A program made the position numbers and the translations under genes. A stretch of 64,000 nucleotides of DNA from an uncultured Lachnospiraceae bacterium (GTDB taxonomy: Bacteria > Bacillota > Clostridia > Lachnospirales > Lachnospiraceae), in assembly GCA_947627365.1 (NCBI GenBank), contig CANQVT010000002.1:62001-126000 (forward strand), given 5' to 3'. Every line of letters starts with the position of its first letter. Within the stretch, counting starts at the first letter, position 1. Positions 32,964 to 52,003 of this stretch are shown piece after piece. Below the pieces are notes generated by a model. That model saw nothing but the letters and a program-made list of their open reading frames with translations, searched no databases and was not told the origin of the DNA.

Positions 32964-33000
32964 AAAAAAGGAGCCGCACGCTCAACGCGGCAGCTCCTTC
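32964..33000 (-). terminator. Terminator of the kinase/FHA operon
   Basis: On the minus strand AAGGAGC plus CCGC pairs with GCGGCTCCTT, then a run of six T. The left arm includes the last codons of the pseudokinase gene, whose stop is at 32982. Confidence 0.85.
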
Positions 33001-33500
33001 TTCTGATCTCGTACATAATAGCAGGTATTGTTCCTCGCGAAAAAATCCATGTACTTTTTTTCCACCCGGCGGACACATTGATAATAAAATTTTGCCTTCT
33101 CAAAAAAGCGCTGCTTCTCCTGCTCGAACTCCTGCTCGCGGCCGGAAAGGCAGTTCACCTGCTCCGACAAGGTATTGTCTCTCTGAAGCAGGTTCCTCGG
33201 ATAACACTCGTGCACCTCCACGGTGCAGCCGCGCTTCAGATCCCAGCCCAGATACTCCAGCTCCGTCTCGCTTTCCTTCAGAAGCCTTCCGACGATATAC
33301 CAGCCTTTGAGAAGCGTCCCCGGCGCGAGCCACCACACCTGCGTCAGGCACAAACCGTTCTGATAACCGCACACCGGACAGGGAACGTTCGACGGCCCGC
33401 CGTCGTGAAACTCCTCCTCTTCGTCCCGATCCGGCAGCTCCTCCATTGGAGCAAAGCAGTAAATACACCGGTGAAACATCTCTATTTTTTCCTTTCTCAT
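32982..33500 (-). CDS. Zinc-ribbon plus truncated pseudokinase N-lobe
   Basis: 172 residues. The N-terminus has a zinc-ribbon pair (CIYC and CPVCG, about 12-46). Residues about 58-170 align with the start of the neighbouring kinases: APGTLLKGWYIVGRLL followed by YLGWDLKRGCTVEVHECYP. The Gly-rich loop is lost (LLKESETE where the others have LGQGGFG) and the ATP-binding Lys is His (VEVHECYP against VAIKEYYP). There is no C-lobe: no HRD, no DFG. The terminator begins inside its last codons, so the truncation is not a sequencing edge. It may act as a decoy or adaptor. A second ATG at residue 8 is an alternative start. Confidence 0.78.
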   Translation of the reverse strand: MRKEKIEMFHRCIYCFAPMEELPDRDEEEEFHDGGPSNVPCPVCGYQNGLCLTQVWWLAPGTLLKGWYIVGRLLKESETELEYLGWDLKRGCTVEVHECYPRNLLQRDNTLSEQVNCLSGREQEFEQEKQRFFEKAKFYYQCVRRVEKKYMDFFARNNTCYYVRDQKKELPR

Positions 33501-33504
33501 TGCC

Positions 33505-34590
33505 TCACTCCATTCCTGACAGACCCCTGAGCTTTCGGAAGATCGCGATGCAGACCTCCCGGAAGCCGCCGTTTCTCAGATCTTCATATGTACTCAGCAG
33601 TGTAGAATTCCTGTCTGTGGTCTTATCCGAATCCGCCGCCGTTACGTCAATCCTGCCTGTCTGATTCATGATTCGGCTCTGCATTCCCTCCGCCTGAGTC
33701 GCCGTCTGACTCTGCACATCCTCTGAAGCGTACATCCTCTCCCACAGCTCCCGCATCGTCTGCGGGCGCCTGTCGACAAAGAGGTCCAGACCCTGAAGGA
33801 TCGCCTCCTCCTGGCAGCGCGGAAGCAGCACGCCGAGCTCGCCGGGCGTCGGCAGCTTCTTTCCGGTCAGGCGGTCCATCGCCTGCACCGGCAGCTTCCC
33901 GGTGAGGCAGTAATAGACGGTGGCGCACAGGCTGTAGACGTCCGTCCACGTCCCCTGCCCCTTGCTGCGGTACTGCTCCGGAGGCGCGAAGCCCTGCTTC
34001 ATCGCGAGCGTCATCGAGCGGTCCTCCGTCACATCGCGCGCGTTCCCGAAGTCGAGCAGCTTCACATGCCCGTTCTCCAGCATCATGATATTGTCCGGGC
34101 TGATATCCCGGTGGATCAGGCCCTTTTCGTGCACCTTCTGCACCGCAAGGATCAGAGACTCCATCAGCGGCATCAGGATCTCCGGCGGGATGCGCCCGCC
34201 GAAGCCATCTGTCATCTGCTTGAGGTTCTGCCCGTCCAGGTACTCCATCACCAGGTAGCCCGTCTCGTTCTCCTCCAGATAATCCCTCACAAGCACGATC
34301 TCCGGGACCGTGTGAAACTGCGCGAGCGTCAGCGCCTCGTCCTCGAAGCGCGCAAGTCCCCGCAGGTAGCTCTCCTCCTGCGCCTGAGAACGCTTCACGT
34401 CAAGACTCTCCCTGCAGTCCCGGGTGGCCCAGAAGCCCGGATAGTATTCCTTGACCGCCACCGGCAGCCTCAGCCGCAGATCCGTCCCGTAATAGGTGAT
34501 CCCGTAGCCGCCCTCGCCCAGCACCTTTTCGATATGGTACCGTCCTCCGACGATCGTCCCGGGCGGCAGCTGATACCATTGATTCGCCAT
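33505..34590 (-). CDS. Ser/Thr protein kinase
   Basis: 361 residues. Kinase domain about 14-280: LGEGGYG loop, VAVKEYYP Lys, catalytic HRDISPDN, LDFGNARD magnesium loop, and APPEQY in place of the usual APE. HRDISPDN instead of HRDLKPEN is shared by the other kinases of this block. There is no membrane helix; the tail (280-361) is polar with no domain I recognise. It starts 32 bases after the kinase/repeat gene and 4 bases before the pseudokinase gene. Confidence 0.94.
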   Translation of the reverse strand: MANQWYQLPPGTIVGGRYHIEKVLGEGGYGITYYGTDLRLRLPVAVKEYYPGFWATRDCRESLDVKRSQAQEESYLRGLARFEDEALTLAQFHTVPEIVLVRDYLEENETGYLVMEYLDGQNLKQMTDGFGGRIPPEILMPLMESLILAVQKVHEKGLIHRDISPDNIMMLENGHVKLLDFGNARDVTEDRSMTLAMKQGFAPPEQYRSKGQGTWTDVYSLCATVYYCLTGKLPVQAMDRLTGKKLPTPGELGVLLPRCQEEAILQGLDLFVDRRPQTMRELWERMYASEDVQSQTATQAEGMQSRIMNQTGRIDVTAADSDKTTDRNSTLLSTYEDLRNGGFREVCIAIFRKLRGLSGME

Positions 34591-34622
34591 TGTCCAATCC
34601 CCCGTTGCTCTGCTATCTGTCC

Positions 34623-37310
34623 TTACTCTTCGCTCTCCTCCTCGTCGAGCGCCACGAACGGATTTCCGTACTTCTTCGCATACTCTTCCGCTGTGCTTCC
34701 CCTGTAGGCCCGGATCGTGATGTTCTCATCCCTGGCCTCGTCTTCCGGCAATATAACCGGATTTCCGTCGTAGACCATACTCGTGGAGCCCGGAGCGTCC
34801 TCCGAATTCATGTCCAGGAACGTCGGATTGCCCAGAATCGTGATCTCCTTCAGGTTCTTGCAGTAGGCGAACGGAATCGTCAGCTCTTCCACACTCTCGG
34901 GAATCACGACCGACTCAAGATACAGATTGTGCTGAAGCCCGTAATCCACGATCCTGCGCAGCGTCTCCGGAAATTCCACCGAAACCAGTCCCGAATTCGT
35001 GATCACATTCACATCGATCTCCTCCACCGTTCCGAAGTCAAACTCCGTCAGGTTGACGCAGTTGGTGAAGAGGCCGTCTGTGAGCTTTGTGATCCCCGGC
35101 TCTATGACCACTTTCCGGATAAAGTTCCGGTAGTTCGTCCATCCGGGACCGCTCCCTATCGCATCCGTATCCTCCGATGTTGTCCTGTACCTCCAGGGCT
35201 CACCCTCGCCGCTCAGCGTGAGCACGCCGCCCTCCAGGTCAAGCTCCCAGTACACATTCTCCCCGCACTGTCCGTCCACCGTGGGCTCGGGCTCCTGTCC
35301 AAGCGGGACGAACGGAAGCTGCAATTCCTCCGCGAACGCCTCCGCATTCGATCCGCTCTCCGCGAAGATCATCGGGCCGCCAAGAGGCTGCTCCGGGCCG
35401 GAGGGATCCCATAATCTGAACGTTTCGCCGAACGCATTATGATCCAGCTCCGGCTCCCCGTGGATAACCGCCTTCATGATCCCGGCGTCCTTGAACGCAT
35501 TCACCGCAACGGATTCCAGAGATTCCGGAAACTCTACCTCATCCAGATTTCTGCATGTCTCGAACGCGCCTTCGCCGATCCGGACAAGCCGGTCGCCGAA
35601 CGTCACACTCTCCAACGCTGTGTCCGCGAACGCCCCGTCGCGAATCTCCCGCACATACTCAAGACCGTCGACCTGCTTCAGGTTCGGGCAACCGGAAAAA
35701 GCATCCTGTCCGATCGTGGCGACATTCTCCGAGATCACCACTTTCTCGATCGTGTCGCGGTACTCGCCCCAGGGAAGCACATGTTGTTCTTCGGAATCCA
35801 CTCCGAAATCCCACATCTTCCGATCTTTCCCATCGGCCAAAATCGTAAGCACTCCCGTCGACGGATTGAAGCTGTAAGTCATGTAATCGCCGCAGGCTCC
35901 GGTGATCAGATCCGCCGGCAGCTCAGACTCCTCCGAACCTGCCGTGCCTGTCTCCGCTCCGGACAGCTCCGATGCGAGCTCCGTCCCCGGCTGTCCCGGC
36001 ACATCCGGTCCGCCGCCCTGTCCGCCGCGCAGCAGCTGCCATCCGGCAAACACCGCAAGCACAAAGAGCACAGCCGCGCCGCCAAGGAGCAAGAGACGTC
36101 TCCTGTCGTCGTCACTTTTTCCTCCGTTCAGACCATTTTTCCTTCCATCGCCATCGGCCGCGTCCTGATTTCTGTCGGTACGATCCCCGCCAGAACGATT
36201 TTCATCGATATGACCATCGCCGACATAAGTCCTGCCGCCATGATCTCCGCCGCCATAAGTTCCACCGGAACGGCCTCCGCCGATATCATCGCTGCTGCCG
36301 TCCCTATCGTCGTCATCCGTATCCTCGTCGCCGCCCGTCCGAAACAGCCGCCTGTACAGCTCTCCCATATCCTGGATGCGATCCCTGGTCTGGATCTCCA
36401 TGCCCCGCTTCAGCGCCTTCTCCACATAGTCCGGCACCTCGATGCCCAGCTCCTGAAACCAACTAATGTCCTCCCCGAGGATCCTCCCGGGCGCGTCCGC
36501 GGGCGCCTCGCCCGTCAGACAGAAATAGATCGTCGCGCACATCGCGTAGATATCCGTCCAGGGCCCAAGCGAGCCGCGGCTCTGGTACTGCTCCACCGGT
36601 GCGTAGCCCTGCTTGAGGATCGCTTCGGTCGACTTTGTCAGCGGCTGATCCGGCGCGGTGAGTCCCACGTCCCGGACTGCCCCGAAATCGACGAGCCTCA
36701 CGTCCCCGTCTTTCTGGATCATGATGTTGTCCGGACTGATGTCCCGGTGGACGATGCCGGATCTGTGCACGGTCTGCAGGGCCTTTATGATCGGCCCCAG
36801 AATGCCGAGCGTCTCCTCGACCCCGAGCTTTCCGCCGTGCTCCCTCACATACTCCTTCAGCGTGATACCCTCGATGTACTCCATGACAATATAAGCCGTG
36901 TTGTTCGCAAGGAAAAAGGTCTTCACCTGCACGATCTCCGGAATCCCGGACAGCCGGGCGAGCATCTTCACCTCGCGCATAAAACGCTCCTTGTTGTTGC
37001 GGAAGCGCGAACCGACCTCGCCCCCGCCGCTGATCACGTCCGTTGAGTTCTTATTGTTCCGGCTCACGGCTCCCGTCGGGTAATACTCCTTGATCGCGAC
37101 CGGCATTTCCAGATACTGATCCCAGCCCATATAGGTGATGCCGAACCCACCTTGACCGAGCACACGCCCGACCAGATACTGCTCCTTGAGCACGGTGCCG
37201 GCCGGGAGCTGGTAATCCTCATTCGGCTTGCTGTTGTCATAACCGCAGTGCGGGCAAACCACGGCGTCACCGATCTTTTTCATACATCCATAACAACGTT
37301 TCTCTCTCAT
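34623..37310 (-). CDS. Transmembrane Ser/Thr kinase with zinc ribbon and extracellular leucine-rich repeats
   Basis: 895 residues from the ATG at 37310 (GAGGG seven bases upstream; four bases after the PP2C stop). Order: zinc ribbon with C6, C9, C19 and C22; kinase about 34-300 with LGQGGFG, VAIKEYYP, HRDISPDN, VDFGAV and APVEQY; a Gly/Asp-rich linker; one membrane helix (about 408-430); then an extracellular part of BspA-like leucine-rich repeats (about 470-895, motifs such as IGQDAFSGCPNLKQV and IGEGAFETCRNLDEV). It looks like a receptor kinase sensing an outside ligand. Confidence 0.94.
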   Translation of the reverse strand: MREKRCYGCMKKIGDAVVCPHCGYDNSKPNEDYQLPAGTVLKEQYLVGRVLGQGGFGITYMGWDQYLEMPVAIKEYYPTGAVSRNNKNSTDVISGGGEVGSRFRNNKERFMREVKMLARLSGIPEIVQVKTFFLANNTAYIVMEYIEGITLKEYVREHGGKLGVEETLGILGPIIKALQTVHRSGIVHRDISPDNIMIQKDGDVRLVDFGAVRDVGLTAPDQPLTKSTEAILKQGYAPVEQYQSRGSLGPWTDIYAMCATIYFCLTGEAPADAPGRILGEDISWFQELGIEVPDYVEKALKRGMEIQTRDRIQDMGELYRRLFRTGGDEDTDDDDRDGSSDDIGGGRSGGTYGGGDHGGRTYVGDGHIDENRSGGDRTDRNQDAADGDGRKNGLNGGKSDDDRRRLLLLGGAAVLFVLAVFAGWQLLRGGQGGGPDVPGQPGTELASELSGAETGTAGSEESELPADLITGACGDYMTYSFNPSTGVLTILADGKDRKMWDFGVDSEEQHVLPWGEYRDTIEKVVISENVATIGQDAFSGCPNLKQVDGLEYVREIRDGAFADTALESVTFGDRLVRIGEGAFETCRNLDEVEFPESLESVAVNAFKDAGIMKAVIHGEPELDHNAFGETFRLWDPSGPEQPLGGPMIFAESGSNAEAFAEELQLPFVPLGQEPEPTVDGQCGENVYWELDLEGGVLTLSGEGEPWRYRTTSEDTDAIGSGPGWTNYRNFIRKVVIEPGITKLTDGLFTNCVNLTEFDFGTVEEIDVNVITNSGLVSVEFPETLRRIVDYGLQHNLYLESVVIPESVEELTIPFAYCKNLKEITILGNPTFLDMNSEDAPGSTSMVYDGNPVILPEDEARDENITIRAYRGSTAEEYAKKYGNPFVALDEEESEE

Positions 37311-37314
37311 CTCT

Positions 37315-38058
37315 CTACCCTCTGCCCTGTCCTTTGCCCTGTCCTCCGCTGCAGAACACCGCGGCGGCAGTATAGTTATCATTGTCTCCCTTCACGCGCG
37401 CGCGCAGGATGCGCTCCATGCGCGCAAGCCATTCGTCCGGAGTTGCGGAAGATGCAAGCTCCCTCTCCATCTCCGCTTCGTACACATATTCCCAGAACCC
37501 GTCGCTGCACAGCAGGAATGCGTGCACGCCCGACGAGACCGGGACGGCCTCCGCCACATCCGGTTCCCAGCTGCTCCCGCCCAGAGCCCGCAGCACCTTG
37601 TTGCGGTCCTCGTGAAAACGGAGCTGCTCTGGGGTGATCTCCCCCATCAGCACCGCGATCTGCGACACGCTCTGATCGAGCGTCTGCTGCACGATGTGAT
37701 TCCCGCTGAAATGATAAAGCCTGGAGTCGCCCACATGTCCCCAACGGGCCTCCTGCCCGTCGATGCAGAGCACGACCGCCGTTGTCTTCATCATGCAGCT
37801 CTTCGACTGGTGGCGCGTCACCTCTCGGTGCGCGTCCTCGAACGCCCGGCGCATCCCCTCCCGACTGCCCAACATCCTCCGGTGGTACTGCCGGGACAGG
37901 CTCTCCACCGCGGCTCTGGACGCGGTCTGTCCGCCCCCGTGGCCGCCAAGACCGTCCGCGACGATCGCACACACTCCGCGATCCGAATTCTCAATCCAGA
38001 CCGCATCCTCGTTCTGGCTGCGTCCTCCGCAGCTCGTGATCTGCGCTGTCGTAATCAT
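37315..38058 (-). CDS. PP2C-type Ser/Thr phosphatase
   Basis: 247 residues from the ATG at 38058 (GGGAGG five bases upstream). Metal-binding motifs are complete: NEDA, VADGLGGHGGG, GHVGDSRLY, LLCSDGFWEY and GDNDNYT. It is cytoplasmic, as there is no membrane helix. It should reverse phosphorylation by the kinases encoded beside it. It overlaps no neighbour, but the next gene starts 4 bases after its stop. Confidence 0.94.
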   Translation of the reverse strand: MITTAQITSCGGRSQNEDAVWIENSDRGVCAIVADGLGGHGGGQTASRAAVESLSRQYHRRMLGSREGMRRAFEDAHREVTRHQSKSCMMKTTAVVLCIDGQEARWGHVGDSRLYHFSGNHIVQQTLDQSVSQIAVLMGEITPEQLRFHEDRNKVLRALGGSSWEPDVAEAVPVSSGVHAFLLCSDGFWEYVYEAEMERELASSATPDEWLARMERILRARVKGDNDNYTAAAVFCSGGQGKGQGRG

Positions 38059-38191
38059 TTCCGCCTCCCAAATCGTCTCCTCAGAACGTCCCACAGCCGC
38101 TGTGGCAACTTTGACGCAGACTTTTTGCAGTGCACACAGCCATGTGTCGTCTTTGGAGCAAACTTTATATAGTCTTCCACTCCGGTTTCCG

Positions 38192-39574
38192 TCATAACTT
38201 CGGATACGTGAGTATCACGGCGGTGTAATTGTCCTGATACTCTTTGTCCGCTTCCTCGATCTGCCGCCCGAGCTCCCGCGCGGCCTCGTCCGCATTCTTC
38301 TCCAATGCCTGTTCCATCTGCCAGTCCTCCAGCGTGCCGAAGACGCCGTCGGTCGCCAGAAGGATCCTGTCTCCCGGCACGAGCGCGATCCCCTCGCTGC
38401 TGCGATCCAGATGCATAAGCTCACCGGCTCCGACAAAGCTTGTCAGCGCAGCCTTCTGCGCGTTTCTGTGAACCTGGTCGAGGCTTCCTCTGCCGTTGAC
38501 CCCGGCAAGCGCGAGCTCCTCCGCGTACACATGCGGACGATTCAGACAGAGCAGCCTTCCTCCCCGATACAGATAGATGCGGCTGTCGCCGACTGTCAGG
38601 AAATACAGCTTTCCGCGGCGTATGAGCGCCTGCACGAGCGTGGAACCGCTCTTGCGGATGTTCGGTCCGAGCATGCCGTTCACGCGGATGTTCGTCGCCC
38701 GCGCGGCCTCCAGAAGCAGATCCGCAGGATCCCTTTCCGCCCCCGCCCCGAAGAATGTGTCAAGGCAGGTGCTCACGGCAAGCCGGCTCACCGCCCCGCC
38801 GTCGGAGAGGCCGCCCATCCCGTCCGCCAGCACGGCGAACAGGCCTTTTTCCTGCCACAGTCCTTTCCCCGACTCATCGGAAAGACCGCAGCTGTCCTGC
38901 TGGTCGTCTCTCCCGCCGATTCCGTGCACAATGCCGGTCAGCGCCATACCCGTCCCCGGCGCGGATGCGGAACCTGTCCCCGGCGCTGGCACCTGCGCGC
39001 CGCTTTGCCCCTGCAGCGTGGATTTGCCGGCTCCTCCGGCCTGAGCGCTCCCACCGGATTCGCCTTTGTGGCCCGCGTCCTTTTTCCGGAAGTATCTCCA
39101 GAGAAGCACGAGCGCCGCGACAATCAGAAGCGCTACGCCGCCCAGCTCCAGCTTCCGCACAAGCTCCGGGGACAACGCGGATTCCGGCTGTATCTTCACA
39201 GATTCCGTCTGCACCGTCACGGGTATCGGCTGCTCCGTCGCAGATTCCGTCTGCACTGTCGCGGTCTTCGCCTGCGTCTCTGATTCACTCTCTTTTTCCT
39301 GTGAGCCTTCGCCGGTTCCCGTGGTTTCCGTCTCGGCCGTATCCCTTCGGTCCAGGCCCGGATACGAAATGGTCACCGGGTTGCTCGTCATCTCAGCCGG
39401 AATCCCACCCTGTGTCTGTGTCTCTGTCTCGGCTTCCGCTTCCGTCTCCGCCGAAAGGATCCCCTGCGCTTCGCTCTCCGTCTCCTGCTCTGCGCCCGGC
39501 AGATCCTGCATCTCCTTCAGATCCTTCGTTTGTTCCAGCCCGCCGCCTGCGGCCGACCTTCTGTTCTCATCCAT
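38192..39574 (-). CDS. Membrane-anchored PP2C-type phosphatase
   Basis: 460 residues: an acidic Glu/Thr-rich N-terminal region (1-140), a membrane helix (about 146-165, LGGVALLIVAALVLLW), a Gly/Ala-rich linker and a PP2C domain (about 215-458) with LADGMGGLSDGG, VGDSRIYLY, LLATDGVFGTL and YQDNYTAV. The Asn-Glu-Asp of motif I is replaced by GGRDDQQDSCG, which still offers acidic ligands. The two PP2C proteins of the operon differ in location, one soluble and one at the membrane. It starts 5 bases after the FHA gene stop. Confidence 0.92.
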   Translation of the reverse strand: MDENRRSAAGGGLEQTKDLKEMQDLPGAEQETESEAQGILSAETEAEAETETQTQGGIPAEMTSNPVTISYPGLDRRDTAETETTGTGEGSQEKESESETQAKTATVQTESATEQPIPVTVQTESVKIQPESALSPELVRKLELGGVALLIVAALVLLWRYFRKKDAGHKGESGGSAQAGGAGKSTLQGQSGAQVPAPGTGSASAPGTGMALTGIVHGIGGRDDQQDSCGLSDESGKGLWQEKGLFAVLADGMGGLSDGGAVSRLAVSTCLDTFFGAGAERDPADLLLEAARATNIRVNGMLGPNIRKSGSTLVQALIRRGKLYFLTVGDSRIYLYRGGRLLCLNRPHVYAEELALAGVNGRGSLDQVHRNAQKAALTSFVGAGELMHLDRSSEGIALVPGDRILLATDGVFGTLEDWQMEQALEKNADEAARELGRQIEEADKEYQDNYTAVILTYPKL

Positions 39575-39579
39575 AATTC

Positions 39580-40245
39580 TTACCTGTTATCTTCCAGCTC
39601 TTCCCAGGAGAACTGATCCCCGCAAAGCGGCACAAAGATCAGAATACTTCTCCCGATCTCAATCTTATCATACGCGTGAAGCTCTGTCATCATAAGGACG
39701 GCCTTGCCGTTGAGCCTCACGATCCCCCTGCCGCTGCCCGGCGCGAAATAGTAGAGCTTCTCTCTCGTATCGTACGCCAGGATCGCGTGGTTCTCTCTGG
39801 AGATCGTATCGTCTCCCGTGACGGCGATGTCCATGTATGGCGCGCGGCCGATGTAATTGTTGTCCGCGTGGATCCTGAAATCCTGTCCCTTCGCCGGTCC
39901 CTCGATACACACCAGCCAGCCGACCACCGGAGTGAGCTCCTCAGCGGATCTCGCCTCCGTCCTGTCCCAGGAGCCACGGTTGCCGTCCGCCGCCTTCTGG
40001 TAGGAATCCTGCTCCCACCAGCCCTTCGCCCTCCCGTCCTCTCTCGACGGATTCGCGTCTGCATCCGGGCTCAGAAAATGTACCGGCTGCGTCTTTCCGA
40101 TATCCTCCGCTCCTCCCCTGCCGGGCGCGTCCTCCGGGTCGAGCGGAACCGTTCCCTCGAGCGCCCTCAGCCGCGCGCACTCCGGGCATTCCGGCGTCAC
40201 CGACGGGTCGTAGCTGTGTCCGTTTTTGCATTTGATGATCTCCAT
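39580..40245 (-). CDS. Zinc-ribbon FHA domain protein
   Basis: 221 residues from the ATG at 40245 (AAGGAG upstream). Residues 1-30 hold C/H pairs (CKNGH and CPECARL). After a Pro/Gly-rich linker comes an FHA domain (about 120-220): YIGRAPYMDIAVTGDDTISRENHAIL, with the phosphothreonine-binding Arg in IGRA and the conserved Ser-Arg and His. It is soluble. It probably docks onto phosphorylated kinases or substrates. It begins 49 bases downstream of the kinase-FHA gene. Confidence 0.9.
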   Translation of the reverse strand: MEIIKCKNGHSYDPSVTPECPECARLRALEGTVPLDPEDAPGRGGAEDIGKTQPVHFLSPDADANPSREDGRAKGWWEQDSYQKAADGNRGSWDRTEARSAEELTPVVGWLVCIEGPAKGQDFRIHADNNYIGRAPYMDIAVTGDDTISRENHAILAYDTREKLYYFAPGSGRGIVRLNGKAVLMMTELHAYDKIEIGRSILIFVPLCGDQFSWEELEDNR

Positions 40246-40294
40246 AATGATTCTCCTTTTTCTTCTCATAATAGTGGGTTGACAGTTACTCTAT

Positions 40295-41563
40295 TTAAAG
40301 TTCCATGACCTCAAATATCTGATTCTCTCCAATGCGGATCCCGCTCCCCGGCCTCAGCTCGTACACGAGTCCCGGCGTGATCTTCTTATAGTCCAGATAG
40401 GTGGCGCAGCCGGAACCCATATCCGTCAGGAACAGCTTCCCCCGCTCGCTCCAGACCCGGAATTGGACGTCCCCGATTCCTGCTATCCCCGGTGGGAAAT
40501 GGATCAGGCACTGCGCTTTCTTTCCCGCGTATAGGATCGGCTCCGGCCGGAAGCGCTCGTTCTCCCATATGCCGGTCCTCCCGAGCAGGATCAGACTCCC
40601 GTTTTTCGCAGCCGCCGACCCGGATGTTCCTCGGCCGCTTTCCCTTCCCACCGGCTCCCCGGTCAGCTCCGACCAGAAAACGCCTACATCCTGATACCGA
40701 TCCTTCACCGGGAGCGCCATCGCCTTCTGCAGCGCCCTTTCATCGAAATTCTCCGGCGGACGGACCCCAAGCTCCGAGAGCGTTTTCTCCCTCGCCCCGG
40801 AGAGGCGCTCGATCGCCCCTGGCGGAAGCTGCCCGGCGAGGCAGGAGTAGATCGTCACCGCCAGCGCGTAGATATCGCTCCAGGGTCCAAGATCCCCATG
40901 CAGCGAAAACTGCTCCGGTGGAGCGTATCCCCGCTTCAGGACGATCTGCGTGCTCATCCCTCCAATCCTGGTCTTCGCTGCGCCGAAATCAATCAGCTTC
41001 ACCTGTCCATTCTTGCGCAGGATCACGATATTATCCGGACTGATGTCACAGTGCACGATCCCACTCTGGTGTACCGTGCGCAGCGCGTGTACAGTCTGGG
41101 AAAATACCGGCTCCAGGTCCTCCCATCCGGCCCGGAGACCGGGCTGCCTCTGCAGAAGATGCCTCAGGTCAGAGCCGTCCAGATATTCCATCGCGTAGTA
41201 GGCGGTATTGTTTTCCCGGAACAGGTGCCTCACTTCCACGATGTTCGGATGCCCCCGGTACTGGTAGATGATCTGCGCCTCCTCCAGAAAGCGGTCCATA
41301 TATTTCTCGAAATGTTCCCTGTCCTTCCCCGAGGATACTTCCCCGGAACCTTTGACCCGGTCCGAAATTCCCGCCGGCATGTACTCCTTCAGCGCGACGC
41401 GGCAGTTCTCTCTCTCGTCCCACGCCCGGTAGGTGATCCCGAATCCACCCTCGCCGAGCGTCGATCCGATCGTATAGCGGCCGTGCAGCAAATAGCGCTG
41501 CGGCAGCGCGCGCGGAGAATTCCGGCCCGACAAAAACAGTTCTCTCAGATTTCCCTTTGCCAA
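40295..41563 (-). CDS. Ser/Thr kinase with C-terminal FHA-like domain
   Basis: 422 residues. The start is TTG at 41563, with AGGAG six bases upstream and the previous stop two bases away; the ribosome site overlaps that stop. Kinase domain about 29-295: LGEGGFG, VALKEYMP, DFGAAKT and APPEQF. The catalytic HRD is HCD (IVHCDISPDN), an Arg-to-Cys change like that of RD-negative kinases, so activation-loop phosphorylation may not be needed. Residues about 330-422 resemble an FHA fold (FRPEPILYAGKKAQCLI, then GSGCATYLDY), with the usual GR loop lost. Confidence 0.9.
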   Translation of the reverse strand: MAKGNLRELFLSGRNSPRALPQRYLLHGRYTIGSTLGEGGFGITYRAWDERENCRVALKEYMPAGISDRVKGSGEVSSGKDREHFEKYMDRFLEEAQIIYQYRGHPNIVEVRHLFRENNTAYYAMEYLDGSDLRHLLQRQPGLRAGWEDLEPVFSQTVHALRTVHQSGIVHCDISPDNIVILRKNGQVKLIDFGAAKTRIGGMSTQIVLKRGYAPPEQFSLHGDLGPWSDIYALAVTIYSCLAGQLPPGAIERLSGAREKTLSELGVRPPENFDERALQKAMALPVKDRYQDVGVFWSELTGEPVGRESGRGTSGSAAAKNGSLILLGRTGIWENERFRPEPILYAGKKAQCLIHFPPGIAGIGDVQFRVWSERGKLFLTDMGSGCATYLDYKKITPGLVYELRPGSGIRIGENQIFEVMEL

Positions 41564-41565
41564 AG

Positions 41566-43005
41566 CTATCTCCTCATTTCTCTCACAAGCCGGACGCTGC
41601 AGGTCTGATCGCCCAGGCAGACGGTACTTCCCTCATAGACCTCCGTCTCGACCTGCGCCGGAATCCTCCTCGCGTCGACGAGCGTTCCGTTCGTGGAGCC
41701 GAGATCCCTCACGCTCAGCCTGCCCGCCTGAAAGCGGAACTCACAGTGCAGGCCGCTCACCTTCGGACTGTTGCCGAGCACCAGGGAGGCTCTCGACGCG
41801 TCCCTGCCCGCACGCAGTACGCTGCCCTCACTCAAAGCGATCCTTCTGCCGGAGAGTTCTCCCGAGACGCCCTGCAGATACCACACCTCCGCGGACACGG
41901 AATTCCCAACGTCCGACAGCACCGGATTCTGATTTATGATTCCCGGAGACACCGCGTTCACCGCATTCGTCAGGCCGCCGTTTTCCTGGACACTGATCTC
42001 GACGATCTGATTCACGCCCTTGCGCAGCAGCGGAAGCAGGAAGAAGAAACCGAGCGGATACAGCACGAAGAGTATCTGCGCTGAGAGCAGGCTGCCCAGA
42101 ACCGGAACTCTCAGTATCCAAACCTCGCTCAGCGGCGTCTCCGAATTGTTCAGCGCATGCAGCAAAAACGCGGCCGCAAAGTAGATCAGCACCGGGAGCT
42201 GAACCAGATGGCTCACCCTCAGATCCTCGTCCTTCTTCACCATGGCGATCGCCCCGCCGTAGAGCGCCGCGTACAGGCCGTGTCCCACGACCCCGTTCAT
42301 CAGTCGGATCAGAGCAACCTTTATGCCATACAGTGCGGCAAGCTCATAATCTCCCTGAATCAGTATGCCAAAGTCCTCATCAACGATAAAGGCGTTAAAG
42401 CTGTACTGGATCGACTCCATCAGCGCAAATCCCGTCCCCACGGCAAATCCGATCAGGATCCCGTTGAGGATGTAGGAGCGTTTCTGCTTTTTCCTCCCCA
42501 AAAACAGGCAGACCAGCAAAAGCTTGGCCGGCTCCTCGATCACCGGGGCCAGATACGCCGGAAGATCGATCCTCTCAACCAGCAGCGCGGTGCAAAACAG
42601 CGACAGCACGCCGCCGAACAGTATCATCTTCAGAGCCTCGTACAGCGAGATGTTCCTGGGGATATTCATCTCCCACGCCATCAGAAACATCGTCAGCGGT
42701 ACCAGACAGGGAATGAGGATCAAGAGCATATACAGCGCAAGCTCATGCTGCGTCATGTAAAAGAAGCCTCCGAGGAGCGCAGCAGCCAGAGCTCCCACCG
42801 CGAAGAACCGCGCGAACAGGAACGGTTTGATCCACTCGGCCAGCATGCTTGCCCGACCCGGCGTCGTCAGCGAAGTCCCCGCGATAAACACGCGCGCCGT
42901 GTCTTCCTCCGTGTGCCTTTTGAATACATCCGAAAAAATATCTTTATAACTCAGCTCTCCCGACTCTGCCTTGCGGAAAAACGTCTTGTTATTCTTGCTG
43001 CTCAT
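41566..43005 (-). CDS. PrsW-family intramembrane protease fused to FHA domain
   Basis: 479 residues. About eight membrane helices (65-350) include the glutamate signature EEPAKLLLVC, GFALMESIQYSF and a membrane His (GHGLYAALYGG, LLHALNN), the three conserved sites of PrsW/CAAX-type glutamic proteases; in Bacillus PrsW cuts an anti-sigma factor. A C-terminal FHA domain (about 385-479) carries RAGRDASRASLVLG, SGLHCEF and LGSTNGTLVD. Fusion to FHA suggests that proteolysis responds to phosphorylated partners. AAGGAGG precedes the ATG; the kinase-FHA gene follows after 2 bases. No anti-sigma factor is in the window. Confidence 0.92.
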   Translation of the reverse strand: MSSKNNKTFFRKAESGELSYKDIFSDVFKRHTEEDTARVFIAGTSLTTPGRASMLAEWIKPFLFARFFAVGALAAALLGGFFYMTQHELALYMLLILIPCLVPLTMFLMAWEMNIPRNISLYEALKMILFGGVLSLFCTALLVERIDLPAYLAPVIEEPAKLLLVCLFLGRKKQKRSYILNGILIGFAVGTGFALMESIQYSFNAFIVDEDFGILIQGDYELAALYGIKVALIRLMNGVVGHGLYAALYGGAIAMVKKDEDLRVSHLVQLPVLIYFAAAFLLHALNNSETPLSEVWILRVPVLGSLLSAQILFVLYPLGFFFLLPLLRKGVNQIVEISVQENGGLTNAVNAVSPGIINQNPVLSDVGNSVSAEVWYLQGVSGELSGRRIALSEGSVLRAGRDASRASLVLGNSPKVSGLHCEFRFQAGRLSVRDLGSTNGTLVDARRIPAQVETEVYEGSTVCLGDQTCSVRLVREMRR

Positions 43006-43060
43006 CTTCTGATCCTCCTTTGAATATTCTCTTTCCCAGCCGCGTGCTCACGCCACAGCG

Positions 43061-44812
43061 TCACCTCTTTATCACCCGGAACGCGACCTGATGGCTGCCC
43101 ACATAAAATACCATCCCGGGATCAATGCTGTACGGCGTCTGCGCCTCCAGCTTCACTCCGTTCTCCAGGAACGTGCCGCAGCTGGAACCCAGGTCGCGCA
43201 GCAGGATCCGGCCGTCCCGTATCTCGATCCTGCAGTGTCTGCGGCTGACGCCCTTCGTGTCCTCCGGAAGCGCCAGATCCGAATTCTGCGGGTCGCGGCC
43301 GATACGGAAATTGTCGTAGATCACGATCTGCTGCCCCGCCGCCGGGCCTGACAAGCATTCCAATATGTACTGGCTTTGCCTCTGCCCCGGCCCGAGCTGG
43401 ATCGTCCCGGACGGAGGCGTGTACTCGCTTTTTTCCGAATCCGTCGAAACACTCCCTTCCGGCCGACCGGGCGAAGTTCCCTTTTTCTTCCTGTTTCCGG
43501 CCAGGAAGATCACCACCAGAATCCCGGTCAGGATCGCGATCCATGCGCTGGGCGGCAGAGTTCCTGTCCGTTCGGAAGTCTCTGTATCCTCAGGATCCGG
43601 CTCCTCCTGTTCTACCGGCTCTCCGCCGCCGGAGCCGCCGTCCTTTTCCTTCGGCTCCTCTCTCACAGGCGCTTCCGTCTCTTTTTCTTCGGTCTCCTCT
43701 TCCTCCGGCTCCTCCTTCGCCGCTGTCTCCGACTCAGCCTCCTCCGGCTCCTCCTTCGCCGCTGTCTCCGGCTCAGTCCCGGCCTCCTCCGGTTCGTCCT
43801 TCGCCACTGTCTCCGGCTCGGTCTCCTTCGGTTCGTCCGCCGCTGCCTCCCCGGGCTGCGCATCCGTTTCAACGTTTCCTTCCTCTGGCGTATCCTCTCC
43901 CGTGTATTCTCCCCAGTTTTCAAGCGCGAACAGCTCTTCGACCGCGTCTATCGGAATGTCATAGACCAGGTACTGTCCGTCCCGGTAGCCGCCGATCCCC
44001 ACTGCCTCCCCTGTCTGCGAGTCGACCACCAGAGCCCCGTTCCACATCTCTTCCACACCCAAATCCTCGTCCAGGATATAGCCGCCCTCCGTCTGCTCCA
44101 GAGAGCCCGCGATCCATCCGTTGATCATGGTGTACTGCTCTTCCTTTTGATTGTAAGCGTAAAATCCGGCCGACAGCCTGGCTTCCGGGTCGATCTCCCC
44201 CAGCGGAGCCGCCGGTTGCCCTTCGAGCGGCGAGAATCCGTAACAGACCGCCAGACCGTTTCCGAGGGGAGCCATGATTATTTCCGCGCTGCTGTCCATG
44301 TTTCCCGTCATTCTTATGTATTTCTCATAGTCGAAATCCTCGTAGTCGCCCGCCGTGAAAACGTAGGTGCATCCGTCATAGCTGACCGCGGAACAGGTCA
44401 GACCCCAGGAGTTGTCCATCTCCCTTGTTTCCAGGTTCATCGCGGGAGCAAACATGATGGCGTCCGTGTAATCCTCAGCGCCCTGCGTCTGCCGCGTCTC
44501 CTGCTTCACTTCATCCTGCAGCCGCTGATTCACTTCCGCCTGTCCCTGCTGCCCCAGCGATTCATATGTCCGCCGCTTCACCGCGTCCTGAAGCTGCCTG
44601 CCCATCTCCTCTTTCTCCCGGGCTTCAGTCGCCTCATGCCACGGCTGCTCCAGAACCTCCTGCAGCCGCTGCTTTGCCGTCTCCTGCGCCCGTGCTCCCA
44701 TGGTCTGGCACGCCAGTCCAAGCGCTGCGGCCAGCGCCGCCGTCAGCAGCCGACGACTGGTCTTTCCAAGGCTTTTACCTCCCCGCTTTCTCTCGTATCT
44801 CTCTCCGTTCAC
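43061..44812 (-). CDS. Transmembrane protein with degenerate trypsin-like ectodomain and cytoplasmic FHA domain
   Basis: 583 residues starting at GTG 44812 (AGGGAGG upstream). An N-terminal signal or anchor (about 18-42) is followed by a helical Gln/Glu-rich region, then a beta region (about 115-290) ending WNGALVVDSQTGEAVGIGGY, as at the active-site end of trypsin-like proteases but without the GNSGG serine motif. Glu/Pro-rich repeats (about 305-415, EEPEEAE-type), a membrane helix (about 422-441) and a C-terminal FHA domain follow (about 485-583: RIGRDPQNSDLAL, VSRRHCRI, LGSSCGTFL). First gene of the block; probably a sensor. Confidence 0.87.
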   Translation of the reverse strand: MNGERYERKRGGKSLGKTSRRLLTAALAAALGLACQTMGARAQETAKQRLQEVLEQPWHEATEAREKEEMGRQLQDAVKRRTYESLGQQGQAEVNQRLQDEVKQETRQTQGAEDYTDAIMFAPAMNLETREMDNSWGLTCSAVSYDGCTYVFTAGDYEDFDYEKYIRMTGNMDSSAEIIMAPLGNGLAVCYGFSPLEGQPAAPLGEIDPEARLSAGFYAYNQKEEQYTMINGWIAGSLEQTEGGYILDEDLGVEEMWNGALVVDSQTGEAVGIGGYRDGQYLVYDIPIDAVEELFALENWGEYTGEDTPEEGNVETDAQPGEAAADEPKETEPETVAKDEPEEAGTEPETAAKEEPEEAESETAAKEEPEEEETEEKETEAPVREEPKEKDGGSGGGEPVEQEEPDPEDTETSERTGTLPPSAWIAILTGILVVIFLAGNRKKKGTSPGRPEGSVSTDSEKSEYTPPSGTIQLGPGQRQSQYILECLSGPAAGQQIVIYDNFRIGRDPQNSDLALPEDTKGVSRRHCRIEIRDGRILLRDLGSSCGTFLENGVKLEAQTPYSIDPGMVFYVGSHQVAFRVIKR

Positions 44813-44922: not shown

Positions 44923-44949
44923 AAAAAAGACGGCAAAAAAGCCGCCGTC
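44923..44949 (-). terminator. Intrinsic terminator upstream of the kinase/FHA operon
   Basis: GACGGC/GCCGTC stem (44929-44934 with 44944-44949), followed by six T on the minus strand. It isolates the operon from transcription entering from 45-47 kb. Confidence 0.72.
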
Positions 44950-45148: not shown

Positions 45149-45585
45149 ATGATTGAAAACAGGAATGTAAATATCATAACCGATGCCGACGGTAAGAAAC
45201 TGGTACTGATCAATGACATACGCTTCAAAGGAAAACGGCAGATTGATTGGGACGATGTAAAACAATACCTCAAAGGCTATGTCGGGGACTATTATGAGAT
45301 TGAGGAAAATGCAGAGCGTATCTTTATCGGTAATGACCTGCCCGAAGAATATACAGAATCAGAAAGTCGGAAGCGCCTTATGGGCGCAAACGCAAAAGCC
45401 AAAGCAAATGCTGCCACCGCCATACCAGAACTGATACAGATTGCCTCGAATCCGGCTTATGAAGAAAACCGGAAGGAAAAGCACAGTAAAAACGCCATGC
45501 CCGCCTGCTCATTAACCACGCTGAAAACGGCAAAAAATATCTATATGACATTCTTGCAATAGAAAAAGAAACGAGCAAGCCGTAA
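45149..45585 (+). pseudogene. Remnant of a mobile-element-associated gene, internal deletion and frameshift
   Basis: The first 118 codons give a normal-looking protein (RFKGKRQIDWDDVKQYL, ERIFIGNDLPEEYTESES, AKAKANAATAIPELIQIAS, ENRKEKHSKNA) which I associate with a family found beside conjugative-element genes in Firmicutes. After about position 45500 the frame changes: the original frame ends at 45562, while another frame reads ARLLINHAENGKKYLYDIL and stops at 45585, which is how the same family normally ends. About 25 residues expected in between are absent. AAAGGAG precedes the ATG, and base composition is more A-rich than the neighbours. The 45586-45774 gap shows nothing else. Confidence 0.72.
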
Positions 45586-45774: not shown

Positions 45775-46878
45775 CTACTCCTCCGCCCCGAATAGCTCCT
45801 CCACGACGCGCTCCATCCTCCGGCTCATATCGTCGTCGCCCTGCGGCTTCAGACAGTACAACACCAGATAGTCGAACGGGTTGCGCGGATCCATGCGGCT
45901 CATCCCACACTCTTCCATCATCGCGTTCAGTCTGCGGCAGTGCTCCTCCAGCGCCTCCTTCGGCGTAATATATTCTTCGTCCAGCTCGTCGTACTCGAGA
46001 TCCCAGATTCCGCCCGTGATGATATAGAGCAAAAGCAGCACCTTCCGCGACACATCCTCGCTGCGGCTCTGCATCGCCTTGATGTTCCTGCTCCCGGGCC
46101 AATATTTCTTTATTACCTTCTGCATGTCACTGTAGGAGACCATCTTCCTGCTCTGCGGCATCTTCATGCGCAGGTAATGCTCCGCGACGTACTCCAGAGA
46201 ATATGCCTCCTCCTGCTCCTCCCCGCCCACAAGAAGATCCAGCATCTTCCGAAAATACTGGTAGGCTGTGTTGTGATACGTTCCGAGGTTCGCGCTCTGC
46301 TGCAGCAGAAAACCGATAACATCCTCCCCCGGCGGCAGGTTCTCGAAACGAAGGCGCATGACCTGCGTGCGCACGTTCTGTCCCGGCCGGCTCTCGCCTT
46401 TTTGCTCCGCGAAAATCCGCGCGTTCTCACAGGCAGTCCGGTAGCTCTGGTGATTGCGCAGCGAAAACGCGTAGATCATCTCCCTCTCGTTGCGGTAATG
46501 GATCCCTTGCTCCACGGTCTGCAAAAGCAGCGTGTCCGTCTGCTTCTCGTCGAGCCCGAGCGCAAAGGCGATGCGGAAGATCTCCTCACGGTCAGAAGGA
46601 ACGTTTTTATCCATCACCCAGTTCTGTACCTTCCTGCGGACGCTGTCCGCCTTCGCGTCTTTTCCATCCTCCTGCGCGCAGAGGATCAGGCCCTCGATCA
46701 GTCTGGGCTCCAGATCCTTCGCAGGATACAGACGGCGCAGGTTCCCCGAAAATGTACGCAGTTTCATCCCAGAATTCAGGAAAGCCACCGCCTGCTTCGG
46801 GGTAAGATCCCCCTCCGCAAGATAATCCCACTGTTTTGCGGATATCTCCGTAAACTGCTCCCGAAATTCCTTCTCCAT
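45775..46878 (-). CDS. Helical HTH-like regulator, unknown function
   Basis: 367 residues, almost all helical, with no membrane segment. The part about 90-145 (IFRIAFALGLDEKQTDTLLL, YRNEREMIYAFSLRNHQSYRTA) matches the late pattern of the HTH protein at 21528-21989, so both probably belong to one regulator family. The rest (150-367) includes a conserved-looking YSLEYVAEHYLRMKM and a C-terminal DPRNPFDYLVLYCLKP. It lies just upstream of the kinase/FHA operon on the same strand, separated by a pseudogene and a terminator. It might control that block; this is inference from position. Confidence 0.7.
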   Translation of the reverse strand: MEKEFREQFTEISAKQWDYLAEGDLTPKQAVAFLNSGMKLRTFSGNLRRLYPAKDLEPRLIEGLILCAQEDGKDAKADSVRRKVQNWVMDKNVPSDREEIFRIAFALGLDEKQTDTLLLQTVEQGIHYRNEREMIYAFSLRNHQSYRTACENARIFAEQKGESRPGQNVRTQVMRLRFENLPPGEDVIGFLLQQSANLGTYHNTAYQYFRKMLDLLVGGEEQEEAYSLEYVAEHYLRMKMPQSRKMVSYSDMQKVIKKYWPGSRNIKAMQSRSEDVSRKVLLLLYIITGGIWDLEYDELDEEYITPKEALEEHCRRLNAMMEECGMSRMDPRNPFDYLVLYCLKPQGDDDMSRRMERVVEELFGAEE

Positions 46879-48976: not shown

Positions 48977-49005
48977 ATGTAACATTTACAAGGCAGGTTT
49001 GTCAA
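48977..49005 (-). promoter_or_regulatory. Promoter of the ABC-F leader transcript
   Basis: TTGACA (49000-49005), 17-base spacer, TTACAT (48977-48982), minus strand; leader of about 275 bases. Confidence 0.7.
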
Positions 49006-49101
49006 GTATATCCGTTTCAAGATGAAGCTTTTTAAATCCTTCTGCAATCCATTCCTCCAGATTTGCAAGCTCCCCCACTACCGCATGGGGAGGAAGGATG
49101 C

Positions 49102-49800
49102 CTACAGCACATTTTCCCTACTTGCAACAAAGCCGGTTTCGTCCTTTTCAATTTTGATTACGAAAGGAAACTTATCATATTTCACACACATATAAAAATC
49201 AGCTTCCGGAAAGACGTCTTGTCTGGCTTTGTCAAAGAAATGTTCCCCGCCATTCTTTTTTAAGCTGTTGATCCTCTGTTCCATTTCCGGAAATCTCCTG
49301 CCTTCCAGAAGGCTTTTGATATACTCCGCACACAGCTCGTCCTCCGGCGCCGGTTTCACGCCTTCATTCCCCATACACACAAGAGAAACCGTTTGCGGCT
49401 GCCTGGCAAGAATGTACTCGGCTACCGCCTTTGCGTTGACAAGGCTTCCGGTGATTATTTCACTCGCGCAGGACGCATTGACAATTCCCTGTGTTCCAGC
49501 ACTGGTGGTATGTATGATCGTTTTGCCGGCCACATCCTTCTCCAAAATAGTTGAGGGCGAATTGCCGTAATCAAACCCGTCACATTTCCTGCCATGTCGT
49601 TCCCCTACAAGAACACTGTTTGGAATTCGCTGTCTGAGGGAAAATGCTTCTTCTATCGTTCCGACAGGGCGTATCTGTTTTGCGCCCATATCATACAGAT
49701 AACATTCCAGCGAAAACGCCCGAAAGACATCTATGATAACCGTCAGTCCCTTCGCCTGTTTCGCTCCCTCGATTAAATGCAGAATGTTTATATTACACAT
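49102..49800 (-). CDS. 2-phosphosulfolactate phosphatase-like (ComB family) protein
   Basis: 232 residues. Family motifs are visible: VIIDVFRAFS (about 21-30), VLVGERHGRK (about 65), DYGNSP (about 78), and TTSAGTQGI (about 98). ComB removes phosphate from 2-phosphosulfolactate in coenzyme M synthesis; in non-methanogens the true substrate is generally unknown, and no other CoM gene is present here. It is cytoplasmic. AAGGATAA precedes the ATG. The gene lies in the A+T-rich segment and may have been acquired with its neighbours. Confidence 0.88.
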   Translation of the reverse strand: MCNINILHLIEGAKQAKGLTVIIDVFRAFSLECYLYDMGAKQIRPVGTIEEAFSLRQRIPNSVLVGERHGRKCDGFDYGNSPSTILEKDVAGKTIIHTTSAGTQGIVNASCASEIITGSLVNAKAVAEYILARQPQTVSLVCMGNEGVKPAPEDELCAEYIKSLLEGRRFPEMEQRINSLKKNGGEHFFDKARQDVFPEADFYMCVKYDKFPFVIKIEKDETGFVASRENVL

Positions 49801-49849
49801 GTGCTTTTATCCTTCTTGCAAATCTGTTTTCTTTTTCCGTCTTTTTCAG

Positions 49850-50548
49850 CTAATCATTTGCAGACTTAATGCAAATGCCAAGATTCGTGTGTCTGGCTAT
49901 CGAGTTTAATCCATCCTCAATATACGCCCACGACTCTTTATAATCTCCATTCACAGAAAAATCCGAATCACAGATAAATCTTGTAAATCCTTCCACATCA
50001 TTCTTGTATTTCTTTGCAAATTCATACGCATCCGTTTCTTTTTCTTCGTCTGTATTATTGCGCTTATTATGTAGCACATGATCAAGATTACAGGACATAT
50101 AATATACCCTGTATGGCACTTGCCATATCTGTCCTGTCCCTCTTAACCTGTATAAATTATCCATCTTCTGTTTGTTTCGTTCAATAATCCCCTGAGGATC
50201 CGGAGTATGAATCCCGTCAGCCTCATAGAATACTTCATCATGCTCTGAGTCCATGATGACATTTTCGTTCGGAACATACACACCGTCCGTGTCTACGATA
50301 TGAATGATCTGTTTAAAATGTTTTGACGTATAGTGATTAGCCTTTGCGTAATTGCGAACTTCATCTCCTATTTTGGAGACAATATTATCTGAACGTACAC
50401 CTTTCCTTGTCGTGATATCGCCATGCATAATGTGTACATACACCTTATCTTTATCATAAATCTGATTCAGCATAACGCCTAATGCCGTATCATCAGAAGG
50501 TCCCTCTACGATAACGAGTACAACTTTTTTACGAGTCAAAAGCCTCAC
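49850..50548 (-). CDS. TOPRIM-like effector partner of the adjacent ATPase
   Basis: 232 residues starting at GTG 50548. VIVEGPSDD (E15) and IIHIVDTDGVY (D86, D88) form a TOPRIM-type Glu and Asp-x-Asp metal site, as in OLD nucleases, AriB/DUF4435 and RloB proteins. The rest has no family I can name with certainty (YRVYYMSCNLDHVLHNK, late helical part). It overlaps the ATPase gene by 20 bases, so translation is coupled and the two proteins probably act together. By comparison with PARIS (AriA/AriB) and AbiL, it may be a nuclease released when the ATPase senses phage; this is inference. Confidence 0.78.
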   Translation of the reverse strand: MRLLTRKKVVLVIVEGPSDDTALGVMLNQIYDKDKVYVHIMHGDITTRKGVRSDNIVSKIGDEVRNYAKANHYTSKHFKQIIHIVDTDGVYVPNENVIMDSEHDEVFYEADGIHTPDPQGIIERNKQKMDNLYRLRGTGQIWQVPYRVYYMSCNLDHVLHNKRNNTDEEKETDAYEFAKKYKNDVEGFTRFICDSDFSVNGDYKESWAYIEDGLNSIARHTNLGICIKSAND

Positions 50549-51935: not shown

Positions 51936-51974
51936 GGTATCCTCCACATATGTTCTAAGTGAATATTTTTTAGT

Positions 51975-52003
51975 ATTATAGCATTCCCTTTTCACTATTG
52001 CAA
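51975..52003 (-). promoter_or_regulatory. Promoter of the ATPase/TOPRIM pair
   Basis: TTGCAA (51998-52003), 17-base spacer, TATAAT (51975-51980), minus strand. Confidence 0.8.

Follow-up and report, generated by a model that had tools for sequence, protein, structure and literature searches.

A run of nine genes from an uncultured Lachnospiraceae bacterium combines serine/threonine kinases, PP2C phosphatases and FHA-domain proteins with an intramembrane protease of the PrsW family that is itself fused to an FHA domain (PrsW-FHA). The run lies in a 64,000-nucleotide stretch of DNA, hereafter the window (positions 62,001-126,000 of contig CANQVT010000002.1, assembly GCA_947627365.1; the genome assembly measures 2.82 Mb in 104 contigs and is 84.5% complete), and all coordinates are those of the window. 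We are highly confident that the run is a real, conserved functional cluster, and because similar sets recur across scattered related bacteria, its nine genes are probably one signalling machine. The architecture of the cluster, the conservation of its active sites, its recurrence and the tie of PrsW-FHA, not of plain PrsW, to phospho-signalling genes are all observed. The nine open reading frames (ORFs), g1 to g9, follow one another on the minus strand from 44812 down to 32982:

44929..44949, minus strand: terminator-like hairpin upstream of g1 (8-pair stem, then TTTTTT)
43061..44812, minus strand: g1, secreted-side domain, one transmembrane (TM) helix and cytoplasmic FHA domain (FHA 1.1e-13, Pfam; alignment with 20 other TM-FHA proteins)
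41566..43005, minus strand: g2, PrsW intramembrane protease with C-terminal FHA domain (PF13367 1.3e-21, FHA 1.2e-12)
40295..41563, minus strand: g3, soluble Ser/Thr kinase (HCD loop) with degenerate FHA domain (Pkinase 8.6e-36, FHA 9.1e-5)
39580..40269, minus strand: g4, N-terminal zinc-ribbon-like CxxGH...CPxC motif and FHA domain (Yop-YscD_cpl 1e-6, below cut-off; 31-member alignment)
38192..39574, minus strand: g5, acidic N-terminal stretch, TM helix and PP2C phosphatase (PP2C_2 3.6e-8; Stp1 model 9.9e-28, below curated cut-off)
37315..38094, minus strand: g6, soluble PP2C phosphatase (PP2C_2 1.5e-14; Stp1 model 4.1e-42, below curated cut-off)
34623..37310, minus strand: g7, zinc-ribbon Ser/Thr kinase, TM helix and, beyond it, BspA-type leucine-rich repeats (Pkinase 2.8e-30, LRR_5 8.9e-34)
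33505..34590, minus strand: g8, soluble Ser/Thr kinase (Pkinase 7.6e-32)
32982..33500, minus strand: g9, zinc-ribbon motif and kinase N-lobe only (no kinase model matched; orthologue in a related locus, L112)
32973..32991, minus strand: terminator-like hairpin overlapping the last ten bases of g9 (stem search)

Recurrence of the block in related genomes

The first search for PrsW-FHA covered 150 genomes of the family, six of which matched, the source genome included; a profile search of a collection of named genomes then gave 35 loci (loci and genomes carry our working labels, L and G). Annotation with custom profiles shows a recurring, mostly co-directional block around it. In its full form (L032, L033, L034, L035) the order is TM-FHA, zinc-ribbon FHA of the g4 type (Zn-FHA), zinc-ribbon kinase-FHA, a TM-FHA protein with a von Willebrand A-type domain (vWA-TM-FHA), TM-PP2C, a trypsin-like TM-FHA, PrsW-FHA and PP2C, followed by one to four zinc-ribbon kinases with a TM helix.

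The association is with PrsW-FHA and not with PrsW in general: at least two of kinase, PP2C and FHA genes lie within 10 kb of the PrsW gene in 25 of 29 loci with PrsW-FHA, compared with 1 of 12 where PrsW lacks FHA (Fisher p=4.6e-6). As all of these loci were found via PrsW and not via kinases, the comparison is a fair internal control. Each locus was counted once: L020-L023 duplicate L035, L045, L057 and L055 and were excluded, L063 was dropped (PrsW pieces under 200 residues), and L062 was counted as lacking FHA, though a looser cut-off showed an N-terminal one. In two of the four PrsW-FHA loci outside the count, L053 and L054, PrsW-FHA adjoins a TerY-like vWA gene; L041 runs into the end of its contig, and L047, a contig of 6.4 kb, has no such genes.

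One member of the comparison sets, L029, is nearly the window itself: a metagenome contig from isolate Lapin-026 bin14 with all nine genes and a PrsW-FHA that is 98% identical. A more distant counterpart is L112 (genome G736, another genus of the family), in which the order of the window is kept from the g1 counterpart through g9. In tblastn its best segments show 39-57% identity, which for g1 covers the FHA domain only; its g1 counterpart has two FHA domains, and its g8 counterpart is split into two ORFs.

Most protein families of the block also diverge together. Across 18 loci and the window (without L029, L036, L040, L044, L048 and L052 and, for the soluble PP2C, additionally without L045 and L057), pairwise distances were significantly correlated (p<0.05) in 9 of 10 family pairs, with no species-tree control; PrsW distances correlate with those of the membrane PP2C, Zn-FHA and kinase-FHA at r 0.62-0.70, which fits joint inheritance. 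A preliminary description of this DNA, made from its letters, had suggested that outside sensing, threonine phosphorylation, docking through FHA domains and regulated intramembrane proteolysis belong to a single unit, and the genes are indeed clustered, not scattered, in relatives, with most families diverging in step.

Among 36 hand-chosen module-bearing loci (24 with PrsW, L029 included, and 12 without; genes may be undercounted where a contig ends), kinase-FHA occurs in 14/24 against 1/12 (p=0.005, one of four uncorrected comparisons) and vWA in 9/24 against 6/12 (p=0.50). The kinase-FHA proteins of L111 and L127 in this set also have a TM helix. The twelve core blocks without PrsW make PrsW-FHA an optional partner, not one essential to the phospho-module.

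The nine-gene minus-strand run itself is as the preliminary description had it. Successive genes from g1 to g9 are separated by 55, 2, 25, 5, 97, 4, 32 and 4 bases, where the gap between g6 and g7 assumes a g7 start at 37310, matching that of the L112 orthologue; the longest g7 ORF begins at 37382 and overlaps g6. Where a terminator had been placed at each boundary, terminator-like minus-strand stems lie at 44949-44929 and 32991-32973, though the pattern alone is weak, since it occurs at 22 sites compared with 11.0 (standard deviation 3.9) in shuffles.

Distribution

Genome counts are lower bounds (up to 4 initial candidates per genome were scored for PrsW-FHA and up to 7 for Zn-FHA). Near-full-length PrsW-FHA is present in at least 9 of 397 genomes of the family and in at least 1 of 398 genomes of the phylum, namely the source genome, and was not found in G549, a genome of the same genus; Zn-FHA is present in at least 18 of the 398 phylum genomes at E<=1e-15, with G439 marginal. 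Given these low counts, the block is accessory and patchy. Its carriers are scattered Clostridia, many of them, judging by their record titles, from gut or rumen samples. Fifteen plasmid records match PrsW-FHA, none across more than 80% of the protein. HydF was tried as a position marker and abandoned: HydF and PrsW-FHA lie on different contigs in G736, G709, G766 and G114 (E 2.8e-70 or better), and the other six genomes gave weak matches only.

PrsW-FHA as a probable signalling peptidase

E157, E158, K161, F193, E197, H242 and H283 of g2 are invariant across 22 aligned PrsW sequences, the window's included. They form an EExxK, an FxxxE and two histidines, which we take to be the conserved PrsW motif, and together with the match to PF13367 they identify g2 as a PrsW protease. 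PrsW proteins fused to FHA or zinc-ribbon domains are considered more likely to be signalling peptidases (PMC3482391). The g2 protein is such a fusion; that account describes the fusion and, in the part seen, not a surrounding nine-gene module.

Kinases, the degenerate FHA domain and the half-kinase

All kinases of the run had been credited with an HRDISPDN-type catalytic loop, which needs correcting for g3, where the loop reads HCDISPDN, and for g9, which has no catalytic loop. The HCD form recurs in the kinase-FHA proteins of L029 and L112; we considered it as a general kinase-FHA feature and rejected this, as besides the window only these two have it, out of 13. The FHA domain of g3 is without the GR and SxxH residues of the FHA motif (motif per PMC1262709). 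That of g4 is recognised only through the FHA-like Yop-YscD_cpl model of Pfam, below its cut-off, and C14, H18, C28, P29 and C31 are invariant among the 31 aligned proteins of its type.

The g9 product had been called a truncated pseudokinase. It does hold a dead kinase N-lobe, but it is not a mere truncation: its orthologue in L112 (152 residues, 46% identity over 165 positions) has the same zinc ribbon and N-lobe, the two end at the hinge no more than a few residues apart, and each has lost the catalytic lysine and the glycine loop. L029 carries a copy of the same length. The retention of this shortened form in two genera makes a random truncation improbable.

Kinases with a TM helix carry varied extra domains (46 kinases minus L062, with the window copy standing in for L029): among the first 25 of 35 families, LRR_5 is found on 11/45, DUF5050 on 11/45 and MORN on 3/45, with single cases of beta-lactamase-like, YARHG, Big_2 and FMN-binding domains. 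Such variety fits the expectation for sensors.

The ectodomain of g1 is not recognisably trypsin-like

The preliminary description also made g1 trypsin-like, which is not borne out: no trypsin model of Pfam matched it at E<=0.1 or at 0.01, and the catalytic His and Ser motifs are absent from g1 in alignments with its TM-FHA relatives. A trypsin-like domain does exist in six of these relatives: Trypsin_2 was matched in 6 of 21 aligned TM-FHA members, g1 not among them, and the motifs TNxHV and GNSGG were seen in six, presumably the same ones. HHalign of g1 against the six motif-bearing members was not significant, and two AlphaFold models of the ectodomain had mean predicted local distance difference test (pLDDT) scores of 51.1 and 37.7, too poor to judge the fold, so neither gave usable support for a trypsin fold. 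By a weak motif and the position of its ectodomain alone, which is where some relatives have the trypsin-like domain, g1 is a possible pseudoprotease.

We also considered whether PrsW replaces an intact trypsin-like protease, and set the idea aside: motif-bearing trypsin-FHA proteins occur in 7/24 blocks with PrsW compared with 8/12 without (p=0.07) and, among loci with a long TM-FHA protein, in 7/19 compared with 8/11 (p=0.13, not significant).

A proposed phosphorylation-controlled proteolytic circuit

From these proteins we infer that the block senses, that PrsW is gated by phosphorylation, that the module's own membrane proteins are its substrates, and what g9 and the output might do. The leucine-rich repeats of g7 and the ectodomain of g1 (and, among relatives, vWA or trypsin-like domains) would sense a condition of the surface or envelope. 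The kinases g7, g8 and g3 would phosphorylate threonines on module proteins, from which the PP2C phosphatases g5 and g6 would take the phosphates off, and the FHA domains of g1, g2 and g4 would gather the phosphorylated partners at the membrane. The FHA domain of g2 would recruit PrsW to phosphorylated single-pass partners, or gate it on them, and their cleavage would end or transmit the signal. The g9 protein, a dead N-lobe with a zinc ribbon, would probably dock on a kinase as a regulator. Whether the whole chain, a self-contained transmembrane module in which phosphorylation controls an intramembrane protease, is right we consider evenly balanced.

PrsW-FHA stands near Ser/Thr phospho-signalling genes even outside the main block, and this is the strongest hint that phosphorylation controls the protease. 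Near it in a second PrsW-FHA locus of [Clostridium] asparagiforme (L049), Pfam picks out a vWA gene and one for a radical SAM/SPASM protein, custom profiles pick out a kinase and a PP2C, and there is an M48-domain protein with two relatives.

Several observations weigh against this circuit. The 29 and 12 PrsW loci are not phylogenetically independent (for example, L038 and L041-L043 resemble one another, and L059 and L060 belong to one species), and the distance correlations could arise from shared ancestry alone. Distances of PrsW and the soluble PP2C correlate weakly (r=0.35, p=0.03) and those of kinase-FHA and the soluble PP2C not significantly (r=0.18, p=0.15). Twelve core blocks have no PrsW, at least two of them, L117 and L119, being cut by contig ends. 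Judging by the residues it lacks, the g3 FHA may be unable to bind phosphothreonine, and neither HHalign nor the two low-pLDDT models settle the fold of the g1 ectodomain. The block contains nothing that is evidently a PrsW substrate, an anti-sigma factor for instance, and a gene for an extracytoplasmic function (ECF) sigma factor lies at the block edge in one related locus only (L022/L057). Tad pilus genes had been suspected beside the L022 block; Pfam gives the ECF sigma factor and ABC-transporter genes instead.

More tentatively, and with less than even confidence, the block may represent an undescribed class of signalling system: interchangeable receptor kinases, their kinase domain N-terminal and cytoplasmic and their outer domains varied, would lay down a code of threonine phosphorylation at the membrane, a PrsW equipped with FHA would read the code and cut receptors of the module within the membrane, and the conserved half-kinase would tune the kinases, so that phosphorylation would directly license proteolysis. 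If true, a receptor-kinase circuit with a phosphorylation-controlled intramembrane protease would link two kinds of signalling that are usually studied apart. No paper on this module was found in our literature searches, which covered open-licence papers and are no proof of absence from print. The question is testable, since L032 lies in the complete genome of a culture-collection strain, [Clostridium] asparagiforme DSM 15981; experiments could also start from the half-kinase, dead yet conserved, or from the trypsin-like FHA proteins, some of which are intact and others degenerate.

Relation to known systems and alternative functions

The block works like the threonine-phosphorylation pathway of type VI secretion systems (T6SS) or like the TerY-P triad, yet is neither. 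With the T6SS pathway (PpkA, PppA, Fha) it shares the clustering of a kinase, a PP2C and an FHA reader. vWA domains are used in both, on PpkA in the T6SS pathway and on TM-FHA proteins in relatives of the block; PMC1262709 describes the PpkA-vWA architecture and also kinase-FHA architectures. The block differs in its several kinases with varied extra domains, its PrsW protease and its zinc ribbons.

On the first alternative, the kinases, phosphatases and FHA proteins would activate a secretion or surface apparatus whose genes lie in another part of the genome, with PrsW as a mere accessory; we hold this to be unlikely. Its logic equals that of PpkA/PppA/Fha (PMC3953482, PMC6082577), and the Zn-FHA and PP2C pair does recur in a second class of loci, taken from 12 of the 18 Zn-FHA genomes (G439 was excluded, one of the 18 is the source genome and four were covered in other sets). 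Ten of these 12 Zn-FHA loci have a protein of 880 residues beside the pair; VgrG-like hub/spike genes adjoin it in L156/L160 (one genome, Pfam), one with a C-terminal nuclease domain, and tblastn relatives of the VgrG-like hub protein are found in L149, L150 and L159. By sequence, the second class looks like a phospho-regulated spike delivery system, and the phospho-core may thus serve more than one output. However, no spike, tube, sheath or other T6SS machine gene is among the nine ORFs (the search for such genes did not extend beyond them), and the spike-locus proteins other than FHA and PP2C, the 880-residue protein included, matched 0 of 39 sequences (window, L029-L048 and L111-L128). DUF4280 was not found in the source genome, though its model matched no control genome either.

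Conserved uncharacterised proteins of about 880, 722, 430, 257 and 245 residues each occur in 7-10 of the 12 second-class loci. They accompany a block of the TM-FHA/Zn-FHA/PP2C/PP2C-TPR type that is found in other families of the phylum (L156/L160, L149, L150, L152-L155 and L157-L159).

The TerY-P triad of Ter systems, reportedly set out by Anantharaman in 2012, is said to consist of a cytosolic vWA protein, a PP2C and a kinase. In L040 and L049, PrsW-FHA does have vWA, PP2C and kinase genes nearby; in L053 and L054 it adjoins a TerY-like vWA gene. In relatives of our block, in contrast, the vWA domain is predicted from sequence topology to lie on the outer side of a TM-FHA protein, FHA proteins dominate in the block, and TerD, which along with a cytosolic vWA protein we took as the mark of TerY-P/Ter systems, had no match in the 84.5% complete source genome. 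The preliminary description had noted that neither WXG100 nor von Willebrand proteins are present. This stands for the block itself, but for von Willebrand proteins the contrast with known modules is not supported, as 9/24 related PrsW blocks carry vWA-TM-FHA proteins; in the source genome, 84.5% complete, WXG100, by which we judged membership of type VIIb secretion systems, had 0 matches, and vWA had one match below cut-off, outside the block.

A response to envelope or chemical stress related to TerY-P/Ter, which would sense membrane damage and trigger repair, seems to us less probable still than the control of an apparatus. The L040 block adjoins vWA, PP2C and TerD-domain genes (Pfam) and a kinase gene (custom profile), the M48-domain protein and its two relatives stand with the vWA, kinase, PP2C and PrsW-FHA genes of L049, and on the single contig of L021/L045 an M48 peptidase and a pair of dynamin-family GTPases, one of them an FHA fusion, stand beside the PrsW-FHA block. 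But such neighbours were seen in these few loci only, no dynamin or M48 gene is among the nine, and there is the missing TerD. The idea of a shared effector gene beside the block was dropped: no neighbour family is found in more than 3 of the 36 loci compared, save in four closely alike loci (L038, L041, L042, L043) and for one family in L047, L051, L058 and L061.

It is improbable that the block acts in anti-phage defence or abortive infection, its kinases turning toxic on infection as in kinase-kinase-phosphatase (KKP) modules. The patchy distribution would suit this, KKP prophage modules offer a precedent with kinases and a phosphatase (PMC11341870), and the best PADLOC matches of the kinases are the mad6 and PD-T4-6 models, the latter with E-values down to 7.8e-47 and no PADLOC cut-off given. 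These matches, however, fall in the kinase region common to many kinases, the NCBIfam mad6 model (NF047741) gives 109.1, 135.6 and 117 bits against a cut-off of 460, the sole neighbour scanned (45775-46878) has no PADLOC match, and outside-facing domains would be ill-suited to an internal phage sensor. As differences from KKP, the abstract of PMC11341870 mentions no FHA, protease or ectodomains, and g4 matched no phage record.

A loose accretion of duplicated kinase and FHA genes without a joint pathway, as differing gene content and order between loci and the weak correlation of soluble PP2C distances with those of PrsW and the membrane PP2C might suggest, is most improbable given the recurrent, mostly co-directional block, the PrsW-FHA association and the correlated divergence.

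The actinobacterial Pkn/PstP/FhaA-FhaB cluster likewise unites FHA proteins with a PP2C and a Hanks kinase. Our block resembles it in these components and differs in having PrsW and in its kinases, which fall far under the cut-off for PASTA kinases (PknB/Stk1 model NF033483: g8 151.4, g7 152.6 and g3 125.8 bits against 450). Linkage of kinase, PP2C and vWA genes has been described for GAP1-N2 neighbourhoods of actinobacteria (PMC7159879), and one FHA-FHA-trypsin and one TerD-trypsin protein have been listed (PMC2605481).

Other features of the window and genome

Between the block and its upstream neighbour, a small ORF on the opposite strand (45149-45562, plus strand) has no assigned function. 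Further on, 49000-51999 has a G+C content of 0.40 compared with 0.55-0.62 across the preceding 24 kb and may mark an acquired stretch.

FHA domains are found at four places in the source genome, three of them within the block. The fourth protein (L024:8098-9513) has a DUF6382 domain, and its gene is near those of two T2SSF-type membrane proteins, of which one passes the Pfam cut-off and the other does not; the arrangement is like that of Tad pilus loci. Kinase (Pkinase) places number seven, three of them within the block; the best kinase match of the genome, a protein of 798 residues (L025, G000:C51), is encoded directly after a PP2C gene, as in an ordinary PASTA-kinase/PP2C pair.

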